A stretch of DNA of 21,720 nucleotides from a virus, in IMG/VR virus record IMGVR_UViG_3300034050_000545, positions 1 to 21,720 of that record, one strand, 5' to 3'. Positions 803 to 12,914 of this stretch are shown in pieces. Each line of letters opens with the position of its first letter. The first letter of the stretch is position 1. The position numbers and the translations under genes are program-made. The notes beneath the pieces were generated by a model. It was not told the DNA's origin and did not search any database. It saw only the letters and a program-made list of their open reading frames with translations.

Positions 803-1678
803 TTAGATGAAGGTGACAGTCGGTAGGCTGATGAACACGCTGCCGACTTGATGGTGCGTAATAGTCGATCCGGATCGGGTTAGAAGCCGGAGATTAGCGG
901 TTGTCGCACTAGAAGAGGGCTTGCTGGCCGACACCACGAGCGACGCACTCGATACCGTCCATTTGCGGATATTTGCGGCAGCCTTCGTGTAGTTTAGGAA
1001 TTGCACAAGCAAGCCCTCTTCGCCGCCTTCACCGTACCCGCCCTCTCCCCCATCTGCTGCATTTTTTGGTTCTGAAGGTGGCGAGTTTGTTCCGCCGAGA
1101 CCACCAGCGCCCCCAGTGCCAGGAGAACCGCTTGATCCATTCCCGCCAGCCACGCCATTTGCGCCTTCTCCTCCTGTCGTCTTGCCGCCGCATCCGCCAC
1201 CACCGCCACCGCCGCCACCGCCACCCGTGCCGCCGACGATGGTTAGCGTTTCTTGATCCGCAGTTGAAAGTGCTCCGACCACTTGACTTGTTGATGGCGT
1301 AATTCCGATCTGAAGCCAAATAGAAAAGCCGCTTGCTACAGCCAGCGTTGCGCCAGCTACCGTCGCCACCGATTCAGTCCACCCGCCGCTACTGGGGTTG
1401 TTAGGGGTGTAAGTGCTCCACGAGACGCCAAGCACCTTGCCTCCTTGAATGACGACGTTCTCACCGGACAGAACGCCCGTGAAGTCGATAACGCTGGCCG
1501 TAGCGGTTGCCCGGCCCTGCTTGCTTGAGACGATGATTCCCTCCTCGGTCTCTTGCAGCGTGATTCCGTTGCCAGCGATTGGCATCTGCTCATAAATGGC
1601 TTTGCGAAATAGCGCCAGCGTCTTTCCCTTGAGAAAGTAGTGCAGGTTGCCAAAGAAATTGGGAAAATCAGGAAACAA
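803..1678 (-). CDS. Glycine-rich tail-tip paralogue 3
   Basis: This 291-aa protein is the last of three tandem paralogues. The N-terminus (FPDFPNF, then LKGKTLALFRKAI and ITLQETEEGIIV, to about residue 50) matches the other two. A middle domain of about 100 residues leads to a glycine-rich segment (149-220) that includes eleven consecutive Gly at 152-162. The C-terminus (IRKWTVSSASLVV and GSVFISLPTVTFI) is again shared. Glycine-rich adhesin tips are known in phages, where polyglycine-II packing presents receptor-binding loops; applying that here is inference. The start is a TTG at 1678, overlapping the previous gene by 11 bases. It is preferred because it places FPDFPNF where the paralogues have MLPDIPNF and MLPELPI; the next Met is past the conserved region. 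Confidence 0.72.
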   Translation of the reverse strand: MFPDFPNFFGNLHYFLKGKTLALFRKAIYEQMPIAGNGITLQETEEGIIVSSKQGRATATASVIDFTGVLSGENVVIQGGKVLGVSWSTYTPNNPSSGGWTESVATVAGATLAVASGFSIWLQIGITPSTSQVVGALSTADQETLTIVGGTGGGGGGGGGGGCGGKTTGGEGANGVAGGNGSSGSPGTGGAGGLGGTNSPPSEPKNAADGGEGGYGEGGEEGLLVQFLNYTKAAANIRKWTVSSASLVVSASKPSSSATTANLRLLTRSGSTITHHQVGSVFISLPTVTFI

Positions 1679-2567
1679 GAGAGCTGATAAAGGTAGCTGC
1701 TGGCAGCGTTACGTGGTACGAGCCCGCATGATATTGAGTGATCACGCCGCCCGTTTGTGAGGCAATGCGGACGTAAATGTTTGTGGCTGGCGAGGATGTT
1801 GGCTTGTTTGTGTGAACCTCAAGACTGGCAGACGTGATCTGCCAGCGGCGGAACACCATTGAAAGATTCGTGTAGTGATTAAACGATTTTGTCTGCCCGT
1901 TTCCGCCGTCTGCCCCGTTGCCCCCATCTCCACCTTCTGCTGGTGTTCCTGATTCGGAGATTGATGTAGAATTAACTCCTCCAGGCGTATAATAGCCGGG
2001 AGATCCGGCGGTTTGCCCAGAAGCTGATTCACCAGTATTGCCAGCATAGCCAGCCGTACCATCTCCACCGGCGCCACCACCGCCCGCGTCACCACCCGCA
2101 CCGCCGCCACCGGTCGTTACCGACAAATTTGCCGCGCCTGTAGCCGACAACGCGCCGCTCATGTTTACATCGGTTTGCGAAAGCTGGATGCGCAGCCACA
2201 CGCTTTGTCCGTCCGCCACAGCCAGCGTAGACGGCCCGACAGTAAACTGCTCCGCCAGCCAGTCAGTCGGCAGCGGGTTACTCATGGTTGGCGTTCCCCA
2301 TGTGGTGCCAATGACTCGACCGACCGTAATATCGAGAGAGTTGGTGGCCGGTAGTGACGCCTTGAAGTCGTGATTGATTGCGACCGTTGGCGCCACCTCC
2401 ACCTGCTGGTCGGCATGAAGGAGAATCCCGGCATTTGTTTCCTCTAGCCGGATGTTGGCGCCTTCGATTGGCGTCTGCATCTTGATGCGCCGCACGATCT
2501 TGTCCAGCGTCTTGCCGGTCAAGACGTAAACGTCGCCAAGCTTAAAGTTGGGGATGTCCGGAAGCAT
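1668..2567 (-). CDS. Glycine-rich tail-tip paralogue 2
   Basis: This 299-aa protein is the middle of three paralogues. Conserved elements are the start MLPDIPNF, LTGKTLDKIVRRIKMQTPI, IRLEETNAGILL, a middle domain with QSVWLRIQLS near residue 121, a glycine/serine/alanine-rich segment at about 153-224, and a C-terminal beta-like domain (FRRWQITSASLEVHTNKPTS, then GSYHVTLPAATFI). The glycine-rich segment differs from those of the neighbours in sequence and length, while the flanking domains align, as expected if this part faces the host and evolves fast. The ATG shares one base with the previous stop (TGATG at 2569-2565), implying translational coupling. The tail-tip or adhesin role is inferred from position and composition; no enzymatic motif is seen. 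Confidence 0.72.
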   Translation of the reverse strand: MLPDIPNFKLGDVYVLTGKTLDKIVRRIKMQTPIEGANIRLEETNAGILLHADQQVEVAPTVAINHDFKASLPATNSLDITVGRVIGTTWGTPTMSNPLPTDWLAEQFTVGPSTLAVADGQSVWLRIQLSQTDVNMSGALSATGAANLSVTTGGGGAGGDAGGGGAGGDGTAGYAGNTGESASGQTAGSPGYYTPGGVNSTSISESGTPAEGGDGGNGADGGNGQTKSFNHYTNLSMVFRRWQITSASLEVHTNKPTSSPATNIYVRIASQTGGVITQYHAGSYHVTLPAATFISSLVS

Positions 2568-3445
2568 CAGGCGATGATAAATGTGATGGCCGGTGGTGTG
2601 ATAGAGATACTGCCCGCCACATGCTGCGTGATGCTGGTTCCGCTAATGGTCGCCAGTTGAATCCACGAAAGCGCCTCGCTCGATGCGCCCTTCGCCGTGT
2701 GGATTGAGATGCCGTTAATCGACCACTTCCGAATCTGAGCGGTTGCTTTGGTAGCGCGTGTGAAGGTAACGCTGCCCCCCTCTCCGCCCGCACCGCCAGC
2801 CCCGCCTGCTCCACCGCTGGCGCCGTAGCTGTTGCCGAGTCCGGTCACCCTAGTCGGCGGAGTTGCAAGAATATCCTCCACGATGCCTCCTTGACCACCA
2901 ATTCCGGTGAAGTCTCCGCTGTCTCCGCCGGAGCCGTCTCTTCCTACAATGTCTGGGTACACTCCGCTGTCAGCACCGCCGCCGCCACCTCCACCTCCTC
3001 GTCCGCCCGCAGCACCTGAGATGTTGTAGGTGGTCGTGCCGAGTGGGCCGGTCGTAGTAGTGTCGCTCTCCGACCACAGCACGCTGAGCCAGACTTGTGT
3101 CACCGTGCCGGTCAATGTGCCGCCGATGTAGTTCACCTCTTTTTGCCAGTCGCCCGGCGTCGGATTGTCGCCCAGAATGGCGCCCCAGAGAGGGTACAAC
3201 AGCTTGCCGGGTGCGACGACCACATTCGTGCCATCAAGCGACACAGCAAAGCCTAGAGCGAAAGGAGCGGCCACTCCGCCGGAGCCAAGGCGGTCGATGA
3301 TTTGGCCGTCCTTGGTCTCGGTGATAATGACCGTCTCTGAGCTGAGCAGCCGCTGCATCTTGATGCGATCGACCAGCCGGTTGAGCAGGAAGCCCGACCG
3401 CCCACCGTTGACCTTCGGGTCGATGATTGGGAGTTCTGGCAGCAT
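2567..3445 (-). CDS. Glycine-rich tail-tip paralogue 1
   Basis: This 292-aa protein is the first and most diverged of three tandem paralogues. It shares the MLPxxP start, LLNRLVDRIKMQ, a VIITETKDGQII element, VTQVWLSVLWSES in the middle domain, and the C-terminal IRKWSINGISIHT and GSISITPPAITFI elements. Its glycine-rich part (about 144-225) holds a run of eight Gly after Arg149 and a later (GGA)n-like stretch. In paralogue 1 the N-terminus lacks the GKTL motif and has GGRSGFLLNRLVDRI instead. It starts at an ATG overlapping the previous stop (TGATG at 3447-3443). The three proteins may form different layers of one tip or alternative adhesins; the sequence does not say which. Confidence 0.72.
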   Translation of the reverse strand: MLPELPIIDPKVNGGRSGFLLNRLVDRIKMQRLLSSETVIITETKDGQIIDRLGSGGVAAPFALGFAVSLDGTNVVVAPGKLLYPLWGAILGDNPTPGDWQKEVNYIGGTLTGTVTQVWLSVLWSESDTTTTGPLGTTTYNISGAAGGRGGGGGGGGADSGVYPDIVGRDGSGGDSGDFTGIGGQGGIVEDILATPPTRVTGLGNSYGASGGAGGAGGAGGEGGSVTFTRATKATAQIRKWSINGISIHTAKGASSEALSWIQLATISGTSITQHVAGSISITPPAITFIIA

Positions 3446-4088: not shown

Positions 4089-5615
4089 TTAAGCGGTCGC
4101 GAGACGGGTTAAGACGTTAAAAATACCTTCAAGAGTGGCGTTAGCTTTTTTCTGATCCTCATTGCCAACCTTCTCTTTTGCCATTTCCCGCCGCAATCTT
4201 TCCTTGTTCATAAACGGATCAATGTTGCCTTCTTTCTGCATTCGCTTCCACTCGTCGTTCACTTCTTTTTCAAACATCCTCCTACCCACAAGCCTTTCCG
4301 CTCGTTTGCGGTCGTTCTCTTCACGCATCTGCGCTCTGCGCTCTCTTGGCCCAAGCATTTGCTGATTTACGTCCTTCTCAAACTGTGCTTTTTTCTTTTC
4401 TAGAATGGATTTTTCTAATCCGTCTTTTTGCTTCAAAAGACCTAATGCCCTGCCGACAGCGGTCGCATCGGCTTCAGTCAAGGCTGTTCCGTCCTCTCTT
4501 GCTTTGTTCAGTTTCAAAATAAGATCGTTCATATGGTAAATGGATGCGATCTCCTTGTTTACCATGTCGAGCTTAGTCTGATCGTCCTCGACGTTTTGAG
4601 TGCTGAGCGACATCACTTTCATCCGTTCGTTTAACGTCTTAATGTATTCAGCCTCTCGCTTTATCTTGTCGGCGGTCGATTTCTTTTCATCAGCTTCTTT
4701 TTTCTCGGCGTCGGTTTTTGCTTGTGATTGCGCAGCCGTCAATTTCTCCTGCATTTTTATCGAAAACGATAAAGCGTCCCGATAGGAGTTTAATTGATCC
4801 TCGTTTATTAAAAACGTCTCATAGACAGAAATCAAAGCCTTCCGAAAATCATTGGCTTTGGTAATCCCTTCGTTTACGCCGCTTAGGAAGGAAGAGAGAA
4901 ATCCATTCTCGTCAGCCATTATTGACGCCATCGTCATCTTTATCTTTTTTAGCTCTTCGTCTAATCCGGCGGCCACCGGCTGAGCATTAGCCATCCCGTT
5001 CAGGATTTTGTCTGTAAATTCCTTCGCAGAAAGGTCCATCTTTTGCAGCTCTTCGGTATTGCTTGTCCCGAACGCCTGTTTCATCAGATTGCGAACGGTT
5101 GGCAGCCGCTCCGCAATCTGATTGATTTCCTGAGCAAAGACTTTGCCTTTTGAACTAATCTGAGAAAACGCCAAAATAATACCCTTCATTTGTTCGCCAC
5201 CACCGCCAAACGCTGCGACATTTTTCCCCAGCGTTTGAATGTGCCCGGTGGCTTCTTCCGCTGTGTAGCCCATCGTTTGCAGTCGGATCTGCGCATCAAC
5301 TGTAGAGGCAAGATCCATGCCTGGCTGCAAAGCGACCTTTTGCAGCTCTTTGAATTTCTTGCCTGCTGATTCAATCCCGCCCGTGACTAGCGATAGCTGT
5401 CTTTTGTATTTTTCAAAACTTACAGTGCTCTCTATAATTTTGTCACCTAAAATGCCAACAGACGCGCCCACCGCACCAAACGCCGCCACATTGCGCAGCG
5501 TGTTGAATTGATTCGACATCCGCGACACAGCGGAGTTTGACGCAATGATTGCGCGATTGAGTCCGCCTTGAAAGTCGGCAGAGTTCAGCCTAAGTATTGC
5601 ATCAAGAGAGACCAT
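4089..5615 (-). CDS. Tape measure protein
   Basis: The tape measure sets tail length, acts as scaffold for tube assembly, and may help DNA entry. Residues 1-270 match the conserved phage tape-measure domain: an N-terminal helical stretch (AILRLNSADFQGGLNRAI), a hydrophobic segment at about 44-63 (VAAFGAVGASVGILGDKIIE), then the typical block with SFEKYKRQLSLVTGG, LQTMGYTAEEA, AFSQISSKGKVFAQEINQIA and ERLPTVRNLMKQAFG. Residues about 275-470 are long charged helices (coiled coil, many Lys, Glu and Ala). At 508 aa it is much shorter than lambda gpH (853 aa). With the usual 0.15 nm per residue this predicts a tail near 75-80 nm. The ATG lies nine bases after the chaperone T-frame stop, the canonical position for a tape measure. 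Confidence 0.95.
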   Translation of the reverse strand: MVSLDAILRLNSADFQGGLNRAIIASNSAVSRMSNQFNTLRNVAAFGAVGASVGILGDKIIESTVSFEKYKRQLSLVTGGIESAGKKFKELQKVALQPGMDLASTVDAQIRLQTMGYTAEEATGHIQTLGKNVAAFGGGGEQMKGIILAFSQISSKGKVFAQEINQIAERLPTVRNLMKQAFGTSNTEELQKMDLSAKEFTDKILNGMANAQPVAAGLDEELKKIKMTMASIMADENGFLSSFLSGVNEGITKANDFRKALISVYETFLINEDQLNSYRDALSFSIKMQEKLTAAQSQAKTDAEKKEADEKKSTADKIKREAEYIKTLNERMKVMSLSTQNVEDDQTKLDMVNKEIASIYHMNDLILKLNKAREDGTALTEADATAVGRALGLLKQKDGLEKSILEKKKAQFEKDVNQQMLGPRERRAQMREENDRKRAERLVGRRMFEKEVNDEWKRMQKEGNIDPFMNKERLRREMAKEKVGNEDQKKANATLEGIFNVLTRLATA

Positions 5616-5624
5616 TGCTGATTG

Positions 5625-5864
5625 TCAAATGTCAAGCCTACGCCAAGGCTTGTCTTTTAGCATTTTACGAACGTCAGCCATTGCAAGGCTTTCTCTCCCG
5701 TCGCTTGGCCATTGAGTCTCATTGCCCTGCATCAGGTAAGAGACGTGCATGTAGGCCAATCCTCGTGACAAAGGAAGATCCCACAGGATGGAATCTTCAT
5801 CTAGCCCGGTCATTTGATGCACCAACGCGACGTAATAGGCTGACCAGACCGGATACGCTAAGGC
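5625..5864 (-). CDS. Tail assembly chaperone, T-like extension (-1 frame)
   Basis: This is the downstream part of a lambda G-T-like chaperone pair, read after a -1 shift at the A AAA AAG heptamer. After the shift the frame continues with ALAYPVWSAYYVA and then 66 more residues (LVHQMTGLDEDSILWDLPLS and onward) to a TGA at 5627-5625. The fusion would be about 228 aa: 149 from the upstream frame plus 79. The only near-start in the downstream frame is a TTG at 5825 with no ribosome site, so independent translation is unlikely. In lambda the G-T fusion binds the tape measure through its T part and recruits tube subunits, and the pair lies directly before the tape-measure gene, as here. The frameshift is inferred from sequence layout; no family assignment by search was possible. 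Confidence 0.8.
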   Translation of the reverse strand, partial: ALAYPVWSAYYVALVHQMTGLDEDSILWDLPLSRGLAYMHVSYLMQGNETQWPSDGRESLAMADVRKMLKDKPWRRLDI

Positions 5865-6310
5865 TTTTTTACCTCAACCCCTTCCGCCGGCAGAACCTCG
5901 GACTGATTCGCAGATGAATCGTTCAGGATTCTAATGCCAAGCGAAATAGCTTCAGACTCCAGCCTGATCGGCACTTTTTCATCGCACCAGTCCTCAAAAG
6001 CGTCTAGCACGGCCTGCATTCCTTGTGACCTCACCTGCTTTAGATCCGCCTTGGGTGTCGAGCAGACAAAGATGATGGCTTTTGCTAAAGGTGTGAACAA
6101 AACCACATCATCAAAGCACTGGCTCAACAAAGGGAATCCGGCCTTGTGGCACAAGGATGACCACAGATCTTTTCTGGCTGAAGTCAGCCCTTCAAACTGT
6201 TTCCCGTCCCATGAATAGCCGCTGTTGAATGCGGCTTCTCTCTTTTTCTCAGCGGCTTCCTCCGTAGGAAGGTCAAGGATTGAAATGTTTCTTTCGGCAA
6301 GTGGCGTCAT
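5858..6310 (-). CDS. Tail assembly chaperone, G-like (unshifted product)
   Basis: This 150-aa soluble, helical and acidic protein lies between the tail-tube region and the tape measure, the position of lambda gpG. The sequence has no membrane segment; FEGLTSARKDLWSSLCHKAG and LKQVRSQGMQAVLDAFEDWC are helix-rich. It ends GVEVKKP followed by TAG, and the GTA AAA AAG codons just before the stop carry the canonical slippery heptamer. Ribosomes that do not slip make this short form, which in lambda is the abundant product that coats the tape measure. The ATG at 6310 overlaps the upstream gene by four bases (ATGA). Family membership is inferred from position, size and frameshift architecture, not from residue similarity. 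Confidence 0.85.
   Translation of the reverse strand: MTPLAERNISILDLPTEEAAEKKREAAFNSGYSWDGKQFEGLTSARKDLWSSLCHKAGFPLLSQCFDDVVLFTPLAKAIIFVCSTPKADLKQVRSQGMQAVLDAFEDWCDEKVPIRLESEAISLGIRILNDSSANQSEVLPAEGVEVKKP
5864..5870 (-). promoter_or_regulatory. Programmed -1 frameshift site A AAA AAG
   Basis: Reading the minus strand in the G frame, the codons are GAG GTA AAA AAG CCT TAG. This holds the heptamer A AAA AAG in the correct X XXY YYZ phase, the same as the dnaX slip site. The zero-frame stop follows two codons after the AAG-containing pair. The -1 frame is open for 79 codons. A purine-rich Shine-Dalgarno-like stretch (GGAAGGGG) ends seven bases upstream, which may stimulate slippage as in dnaX. 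I found no convincing downstream hairpin by eye. Confidence 0.85.
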
Positions 6311-6708
6311 GGTCGGCCAGTATGCAGGAAACGCTCTGCCATTGCAAGCCCGTCGCCGGTGATATTTTCCCGCACGTAGGCCGTCCGCTTGCTTCCCTTG
6401 ATGCTAATCAAGATCATGCGTTCCGCTGCCTGCACCGCACGGGCCACGGCGTGCCGGTTCTTGACGGCGGTAATCGCATAGAGCAATGGGTGCTCTGGGT
6501 CGAGCTTTTCAAGGTCTCCGCTCTTTAGCAACTTCATCAGCTCCCCTGTCCGGTAGGCCGGATTTGTGGCGCTTTCTGTCGCCAGAAAGACGGTGACGTA
6601 CTCCTTGCCTGTGTCCGCCCGGACTTGAACGTCCGGCTTCATTGGCACGCCGATTGTGCCAAAGGCTGCTGCCAAGTCTAGGTCGTTACAAGGAATCCAA
6701 GTGTGCAT
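6307..6708 (-). CDS. Unrecognised protein between tail tube and chaperone
   Basis: This 133-aa soluble protein belongs to no family I recognise. Visible features are an N-terminal half with VQVRADTGKEYVTVFLATES, a charged helix (TGELMKLLKSGDLEKLDPEH) and a basic C-terminal half (AVKNRHAVARAVQAAERMIL). In lambda the major tail gene V is followed directly by G, so this is an extra gene in that order. It sits three bases after the tail-tube-like stop and overlaps the chaperone start by four bases (ATGA), so it is co-translated with tail genes. A tail-morphogenesis role is inferred from that position. It is probably not a membrane protein. Confidence 0.65.
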   Translation of the reverse strand: MHTWIPCNDLDLAAAFGTIGVPMKPDVQVRADTGKEYVTVFLATESATNPAYRTGELMKLLKSGDLEKLDPEHPLLYAITAVKNRHAVARAVQAAERMILISIKGSKRTAYVRENITGDGLAMAERFLHTGRP

Positions 6709-6711
6709 CCA

Positions 6712-7113
6712 TTAAACAAATGGATATTGCTTCACTGTAAAGGTCGTCTTTGCAATTTCTTCGTTCGTCTCTGAGCGCGTCGGGTCAAGATAAACCATAA
6801 CGCCGTCGGTAGGCACAAAACCAAAAGTGTCGGCTGTAAAGTTGGCCAAGGTCATGACTTGTTCGCCAGGGTGACCATTGGAAAGCGATCCGGTTCGGTT
6901 GCTGATATAGCCGTCAAAAGCAAACGAAATGGTCGGATTGCGGTACTCAAGCGCAAAAGTCACGCCGCGCGCGTCCATGTAGGCTTTTTCATCCCGTGTG
7001 GCTGTGGTGGTCAGTGACTGCACCAGAATCTCTGGCGTAGTTGGATTTGATTCATTCAACAGAGTAGTTGAAGGAATGTTCCCATAGCGGATGATTGCAT
7101 CGACGGCGGCCAT
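6712..7113 (-). CDS. Probable major tail tube protein
   Basis: This 133-aa protein sits between the tail-terminator-like gene and the chaperone, the position of the tube protein (lambda V). The composition is beta-rich (ILVQSLTTTATRDEKAYMD, then VTFALEYRNPTISFAFDGYI and FTADTFGFVPTDGVMVYLDP), as expected for the single-domain tube fold built of two beta sheets. It is short for the family, where about 150-250 aa is common, so extra immunoglobulin-like C-terminal domains are absent. The start ATG lies 22 bases after the previous stop and has no Shine-Dalgarno sequence. Assignment rests on gene order and composition; the residue level is not diagnostic. Confidence 0.6.
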   Translation of the reverse strand: MAAVDAIIRYGNIPSTTLLNESNPTTPEILVQSLTTTATRDEKAYMDARGVTFALEYRNPTISFAFDGYISNRTGSLSNGHPGEQVMTLANFTADTFGFVPTDGVMVYLDPTRSETNEEIAKTTFTVKQYPFV

Positions 7114-10055: not shown

Positions 10056-10967
10056 TTATGAGTTGGCCGAAACGTAGGCCGCTTCGGTTGGGAATTTTTC
10101 GGTGAACGCACGAACCGCCTTCAGACGATCAAGGCCGGTGGCGGTTCCGATGGCTTGATTCTTGGCTTCGTGGTAGGAGATCGCTGGAACCTTAACTTCT
10201 GGCTCGTTGATAGGAGCGGCAAAAGCAGCAGGAGCAGGAGCGGCGGCGGCGAGGCGAGCTTGCAGCTCAATGTCGCTGTTACCAGCCTGCAACGCTTTCA
10301 GGTCAGCCTTGAGTGCCTCGCACTCGGCCAGCACTTTTGCGTTGTCGGCAGCAAACTGTGCAGCCACTTCGTCGAACTTAGCAGTGAAAGCGGCGAACTG
10401 CTCCGCGATCAAAGCGGAGAAATCGACTTGTGGTTCTGGCGCAGGCGCCACTGGGTCAATAGGCATAACATCTTCATCACTGTCAATCTGATCAGCCGAG
10501 AACACGCCGTCTGCGTTAGCGGCGGGAGTGTCCACAAAGTCTGCCGAGTATAGACCGCGCGGGCGGGTCATGTAATTGCCGCTCTCTTTGTCCAACTCTG
10601 GCGCATCCGCTGCAAACATCAAGCTCACGCCAAAAGCTGACGGGATTTCATTGATCATTTCAAGGAGCATCTCTTTTCCGCTGTGCGCCTCGAACAAGGT
10701 CAGGTCAGCCAGCAGCTTGCCTTTGCTCACCCGGAAATTCTCGTAATAGCCCACCGTGTCCTCGACCGAAGAGAAGTGGTTGAGCTTTGCCTTCACCCGG
10801 CCCTTCTCGATGGCCAGCGCCTTGAACTTGTTGAGCGAACGCTTGTCCACAAACACCCCATGACCGAGCGCCGGGCCTTCTTGGATCAAAGAAACGCCCA
10901 TGATGGTGTTCCCTGATACCTTGCCCTGAAAGGCTGCGAATGTCTGAATCTCTTCTTTGACGAGCAT
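10056..10967 (-). CDS. Prohead protease fused to scaffold
   Basis: This 303-aa protein appears to join a capsid maturation protease and an internal scaffold in one chain. Residues about 1-155 resemble the HK97/U35-type prohead proteases with an assemblin-like fold. His64 in LNHFSS and Ser110 or Ser115 in IPSAFGVSLMF are the likely catalytic residues, and VDTPAANADGVF near 145-156 matches a conserved end of the domain. A linker rich in Pro and Ala (165-180) leads to a coiled-coil region (about 183-245, AAFTAKFDEVAAQFAADNAK) and a C-terminal segment that probably binds the shell. Unlike lambda, where C and Nu3 are separate products of overlapping frames, here one frame holds both. The start ATG at 10967 is 16 bases after the portal stop; an open frame continues upstream into portal but is not likely to be coding. 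Confidence 0.8.
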   Translation of the reverse strand: MLVKEEIQTFAAFQGKVSGNTIMGVSLIQEGPALGHGVFVDKRSLNKFKALAIEKGRVKAKLNHFSSVEDTVGYYENFRVSKGKLLADLTLFEAHSGKEMLLEMINEIPSAFGVSLMFAADAPELDKESGNYMTRPRGLYSADFVDTPAANADGVFSADQIDSDEDVMPIDPVAPAPEPQVDFSALIAEQFAAFTAKFDEVAAQFAADNAKVLAECEALKADLKALQAGNSDIELQARLAAAAPAPAAFAAPINEPEVKVPAISYHEAKNQAIGTATGLDRLKAVRAFTEKFPTEAAYVSANS

Positions 10968-12642: not shown

Positions 12643-12914
12643 AGCGGAAAGGTTGAAAAGTCAGGTTTGAGACGGTTGGAGATACCCGGGTACTTCACCG
12701 GGTCGAGCTGGTGCATCCTCCGCATCACCGCCCTCATCAAGGTCATGACGGGAATGCCGCCATCCGAGCCAGATGCGCGGGTCTCGGACTCACCACCGCC
12801 CGACGTGCTAATCACGATGGTGCCCTGTCCTTCGGTCAGCGCGGATAAGCACTGATCGTAAAGCGTTTCGCAAAATTGCAGAGAAGCATACCGTAAGATT
12901 GAAGGTCCGCCCAT
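12639..12914 (-). CDS. gpW-like head-tail connector
   Basis: This 91-aa protein lies between the large terminase and portal, where lambda W lies. The pattern fits the small gpW/gp13-like connectors: helix SLQFCETLYDQCLSALTEG, a glycine/serine turn (ISTSGGGESETRASG) and a second helix (VMTLMRAVMRRMHQLDPVKY). gpW binds the portal and lets the tail attach; lambda gpW is 68 aa. I chose the ATG at 12914 because AAGGGA lies four bases upstream, and it follows the terminase stop by 16 bases. A longer frame from 12989 would overlap terminase by 59 bases and add a Arg/Ser-rich tail that looks like out-of-frame terminase coding. The stop overlaps the portal start as ATGA. Confidence 0.72.
   Translation of the reverse strand: MGGPSILRYASLQFCETLYDQCLSALTEGQGTIVISTSGGGESETRASGSDGGIPVMTLMRAVMRRMHQLDPVKYPGISNRLKPDFSTFPL

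Follow-up and report, generated by a model that had tools for sequence, protein, structure and literature searches.

The lambda proteins gpG and gpGT, present at a ratio of approximately 30:1, both bind to the tape measure protein, and the T part provides binding to the tail tube subunit (PMC5009743). Despite low sequence similarity, long-tailed phages have widely retained the G-T frameshift (PMC5009743). Frameshifted tail chaperones are very common, as indicated by the PRFect survey, in which 2476 SEA-PHAGES genomes had a joined frameshifted gene, nearly all of them tail chaperones (PMC10885494). The heptamer A_AAA_AAG is the shift site of dnaX and is highly shift-prone in E. coli (PMC5009743).

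We analysed a stretch of 21,720 nucleotides from a virus (IMG/VR record IMGVR_UViG_3300034050_000545, positions 1 to 21,720; hereafter, the window). The tail-chaperone gene of this uncultured long-tailed phage very probably uses a programmed −1 ribosomal frameshift. The mechanism is well known, and it is found here in a new phage family.

Layout of the locus

The window resembles lambda in that a pair of overlapping ORFs, the second in the −1 frame, lies directly 5′ of the tape measure gene. The features of the locus are as follows.

6712–7113, minus strand: 133-aa protein, probably the tail tube protein as judged from its position
6307–6708, minus strand: conserved 133-aa tail-module protein, 5′ of the G-like gene
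5858–6310, minus strand: G-like tail assembly chaperone ORF of 150 aa (the short product), so named from position and architecture
5864–5870, minus strand: slippery heptamer A_AAA_AAG, correctly phased for a tandem −1 slip
5625–5864, minus strand: T-like −1 frame after the slip, 79 codons and TGA, giving a 228-aa GT fusion
4089–5615, minus strand: tail tape measure protein of 508 aa (PF20155, TMP_3)

The tape measure assignment is based on matches to PF20155 (E 7e-24) and to PHROG tape measure families (E down to 3e-22). The start ATG of the G ORF shares bases with the stop codon of the preceding gene (ATGA), and its 3′ end reads (GT)A AAA AAG CCT TAG, with the TAG at 5860–5858. The −1 frame is preceded by a TGA at 5876–5874, is open from 5873 to 5628 and stops at the TGA at 5627–5625. 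With the −1 frame closed by the upstream TGA, both frames are open together only over the 15 nt or so that end at the G stop, a short overlap that includes A_AAA_AAG. An earlier, sequence-only reading had placed the heptamer at 5870–5864, in phase and two codons ahead of the G stop; its coordinates and phase are correct. It had also described the −1 frame as open for 79 codons and ending shortly before the tape measure gene, in agreement with the stop at 5627–5625 and the tape-measure ATG at 5615. In another part of the window (803–3445, minus strand), three consecutive paralogous glycine-rich proteins of 291, 299, and 292 aa share similar N-terminal segments and are probably tail fibre or spike proteins.

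The same reading named the two products G- and T-like. The names hold for position and architecture, but protein homology was not detected for either product, including the downstream 79 aa. Searches of PHROGs, Pfam, NCBIfam, and PDB sequences returned no match of G or T to known tail chaperones or families, and homology of the window proteins to lambda G or T was undetectable by sequence searches. AlphaFold models of G and T, built from seven-sequence alignments, were of too low confidence to judge the fold (pLDDT 49 and 63), and a comparison of these models with PDB folds gave no meaningful match. No relatives of T or G were present in the scanned bacterial and archaeal genomes, so no host was found. 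That the locus works like lambda G/GT is nevertheless well supported by its architecture, its position, and the slip site.

Verrucomicrobia phage P8625 (NC_029047), which has a terminase match with 95% coverage and 23% identity (E 6e-27), carries gp18 (L024, 11917–12537) at the tail-chaperone position. We considered gp18 as a single-frame homologue of G and T. The resemblance is suggestive by eye, but hhalign gives it no significance (E 0.43 and 0.59).

Conservation of the slip site

Protein-based scans of viral contigs, using both single sequences and profiles, repeatedly returned the same six records. Our comparison set therefore consists of the window and these six IMG/VR relatives, seven sequences that make up one small family.

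In the genes of the window, in-phase X_XXY_YYZ heptamers occur at 9 of 5924 codon positions (0.15%), and the chance of finding one within the overlap, which has three codon positions, is approximately 0.5%, a figure that leaves conservation uncounted. A −1 frame that stays open for this long would not in itself be very rare (P approximately 0.02 by base composition). Conservation is far stronger evidence than these chance figures, and it is what counts for the −1 frame.

Both frames are kept in all six relatives. Five of them, with G 87–97% and T 93–100% identical to the window, have exactly A_AAA_AAG. The most distant relative (L012/L042, contig IMGVR_UViG_3300034050_000569), with 67% identity in G and 70% in T, reads GTG GGA AAG CCC TAG, which places G_GGA_AAG at the same codons as A_AAA_AAG of the window. 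Three bases of the heptamer thus differ while its slipperiness is retained, and the L042 version is the slip heptamer of phage lambda itself. Conservation of the heptamer in related phages had been suggested as a check on the sequence-only reading; it turned out that a −1 slip heptamer is present at the same codons in 6/6 relatives (A_AAA_AAG in five and G_GGA_AAG in one). This natural swap of slip heptamers at the same codons is good evidence from comparison that selection acts on slipperiness as such.

Coding evidence in the −1 frame and alternative explanations

Comparison of the window with L042 indicates that the −1 frame evolves as a coding sequence from its first codons. In the first 14 codons of the T frame, changes at codon positions 1, 2, and 3 number 2, 2, and 8 (8 of 12 at the third position), and in the remaining codons they number 18, 11, and 34 (34 of 63 at the third position). 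When the same changes are read in the 0 frame, they alter the amino acid in 46 of 78 codons. In the five closer relatives, the 13–14 T-frame codons that lie ahead of any possible start show synonymous changes only. No ATG, GTG, or TTG occurs in the −1 frame before +39 (window) or +42 (relatives) in the seven sequences, consistent with the earlier statement that the downstream frame has no convincing start of its own. Because the first T codons are conserved as protein and no earlier start exists, translation must enter from G. Homologues that lacked the heptamer, or whose frames started independently, would have spoken against the frameshift; neither was found among the six relatives.

Together with the slip heptamers of the relatives, including the exchanged one in L042, this entry from G makes both independent initiation and transcriptional slippage unlikely. 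If T were a separate gene, reached by reinitiation after the G stop from TTG 5825, GTG 5822, or ATG 5813, the heptamer would be incidental. The T-frame GTG at +42 and ATG at +51 are indeed present in all seven sequences. However, protein sequence is conserved over the 13–14 codons ahead of the candidate starts, where five relatives differ by synonymous changes only, and the candidate start codons are preceded by neither a Shine-Dalgarno (SD) sequence nor the late element described below. A separate start would also leave the slip heptamer in 7/7 sequences unexplained, and we consider it highly unlikely. Alternatively, the frames could be joined in the mRNA if RNA polymerase slipped on the A6 run, gaining or losing one A; such a run is indeed found in the window and five relatives. 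For transcriptional slippage, however, six A is a short run, and GGGAAAG of L042 contains no run longer than three, although both frames are still kept there; this explanation is scarcely plausible.

A recent frameshift mutation or a sequencing error might also have divided one ancestral gene, as the short overlap of the frames and the 206-aa single-frame protein at the equivalent place in P8625 could suggest. The resemblance of the P8625 protein is, however, insignificant (hhalign E 0.43 and 0.59), and the same division in seven separate records, with 67–97% identity in G, makes such an event very unlikely, to the point that we regard it as practically negligible.

Candidate stimulatory elements

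Two elements flanking the heptamer were considered as stimulators of the programmed frameshift.

5878–5885, minus strand: purine tract GGAAGGGG, proposed SD-like stimulator, weakly indicated
5798–5855, minus strand: candidate 3′ stimulatory stem-loop (arms 5855–5842 and 5811–5798), suggestive only

The purine tract lies approximately 7 nt 5′ of the heptamer and reads GGAAGGGG in the window, GGAAGGTG in L038, and AGAGGG in L042. Its pairing with the anti-SD sequence has a dG of −6.3 to −7.4 kcal/mol across the seven sequences, values equalled at 5–13% of the codon positions of the window. A clear SD sequence precedes only 1 of 23 window genes (start 8247, AAGGAGG), suggesting that the host may not depend on pairing with SD sequences. 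Phage P8625 is likewise sparing with SD sites (4/31). With so few SD sites in use in this phage, an internal SD stimulator is weakly indicated. Thus, the tract proposed in the sequence-only reading is present at 5885–5878, but its stimulation of the shift is unconvincing, given a background of approximately 5% and the single gene with a clear SD sequence.

The candidate stem begins 8 nt 3′ of the heptamer and is present in the consensus fold. Compared with synonymous-codon controls, the downstream fold has z values of 0.0 in the window, −2.0 to −2.1 in four relatives, and −0.9 in L042. In L042, the stem shows one two-sided change and three broken pairs. Fourfold sites are conserved at 4 of 5 positions in the stem arms versus 28 of 86 elsewhere (Fisher P 0.05, with the arms picked after seeing the fold). 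The downstream stem-loop is therefore a possible but unproven stimulator.

An element at the tape-measure start

The 3′ end of T contains a further conserved feature.

5613–5637, minus strand: GMTTGACA-N14-ATG element in the 3′ end of T, conserved, marking the tape-measure start

Exactly six copies of GMTTGACA-N14-ATG occur in each of the seven records (42 matches), on the coding strand only, and none was found in a reversed control. In the window, the ATGs of the element lie on the minus strand at 12914, 10967, 10466, 7113, 5615, and 780, before late genes. The T/tape measure junction GCTTGACATYTGACAATCAGCAATGG (5637–5612) is invariant in all seven sequences except for one Y position, while the codons flanking it on both sides diverge in L042. 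The element may be a late promoter specific to this family, with a very short leader, or else a non-SD initiation element. In two relatives (L075 and L080; G003 and G005), TAAGATTGACA precedes a gene of 80–81 aa with a gap of 19 nt, not 14, to the ATG. This seventh copy leans toward a promoter with a short leader over a strict translational element.

The tape measure gene is probably expressed from a signal of its own, independently of ribosomes that complete T. We tentatively suggest, with some reservation, that the 3′ end of T has a dual role, serving both as the end of GT and as a late-gene element that starts the tape measure gene without the frameshift, and that the frameshift is stimulated by the heptamer and the downstream stem, not by an internal SD sequence.

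The ATG at 10466 is in frame inside a 303-aa ORF (10967–10056) that precedes the major head protein gene. Its predicted product (10056–10466, minus strand) corresponds to the C-terminal part of that ORF and would be a 136-aa, alanine-rich, coiled-coil-like protein; it has no PHROG match. From its position, 10056–10466 is likely to be a scaffold gene nested in a protease-like gene.

Proposed mechanism and comparison with known systems

In the proposed frameshift, most ribosomes would terminate at the TAG at 5860–5858 and produce the 150-aa G-like protein. In a minority of ribosomes, both tRNAs would slip back by one base on A_AAA_AAG, leading to the 228-aa GT-like fusion. If the products act as in lambda, the G part would form a coat on the tape measure protein, tail tube subunits would be brought in by the T part, and both products would leave and be absent from the finished tail. 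The slip, how efficient it is, and what the two products do are inferences, as are the fixed expression ratio and the effect on tail length that the sequence-only reading had proposed. As the mechanism is already well known, the practical gain lies in correct annotation, because standard gene callers would miss the T frame or call a truncated gene.

P8625 gp18 is similar to the GT fusion of the window in total length (206 aa) and in its position just before the tape measure gene, whereas it is encoded in a single reading frame without a frameshift. E. coli dnaX shares with the window the identical A_AAA_AAG, an upstream purine tract, and a possible downstream stem at similar spacing. However, dnaX is another gene, the purine tract of the window is little above background, and the stem of the window is unproven. 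The locus has the plan of lambda G/GT: it lies before the tape measure gene, encodes a short 0-frame product and a −1 extended fusion, and carries the slip site a few codons ahead of the G stop. It differs from lambda in its heptamer, which is A_AAA_AAG in the window, in an additional gene (133 aa) that separates G from the presumed tail tube gene, and in a short T of 79 codons; protein similarity is undetectable. The lambda G/GT frameshift is extended here to a phage family with chaperones that match no known family by sequence.
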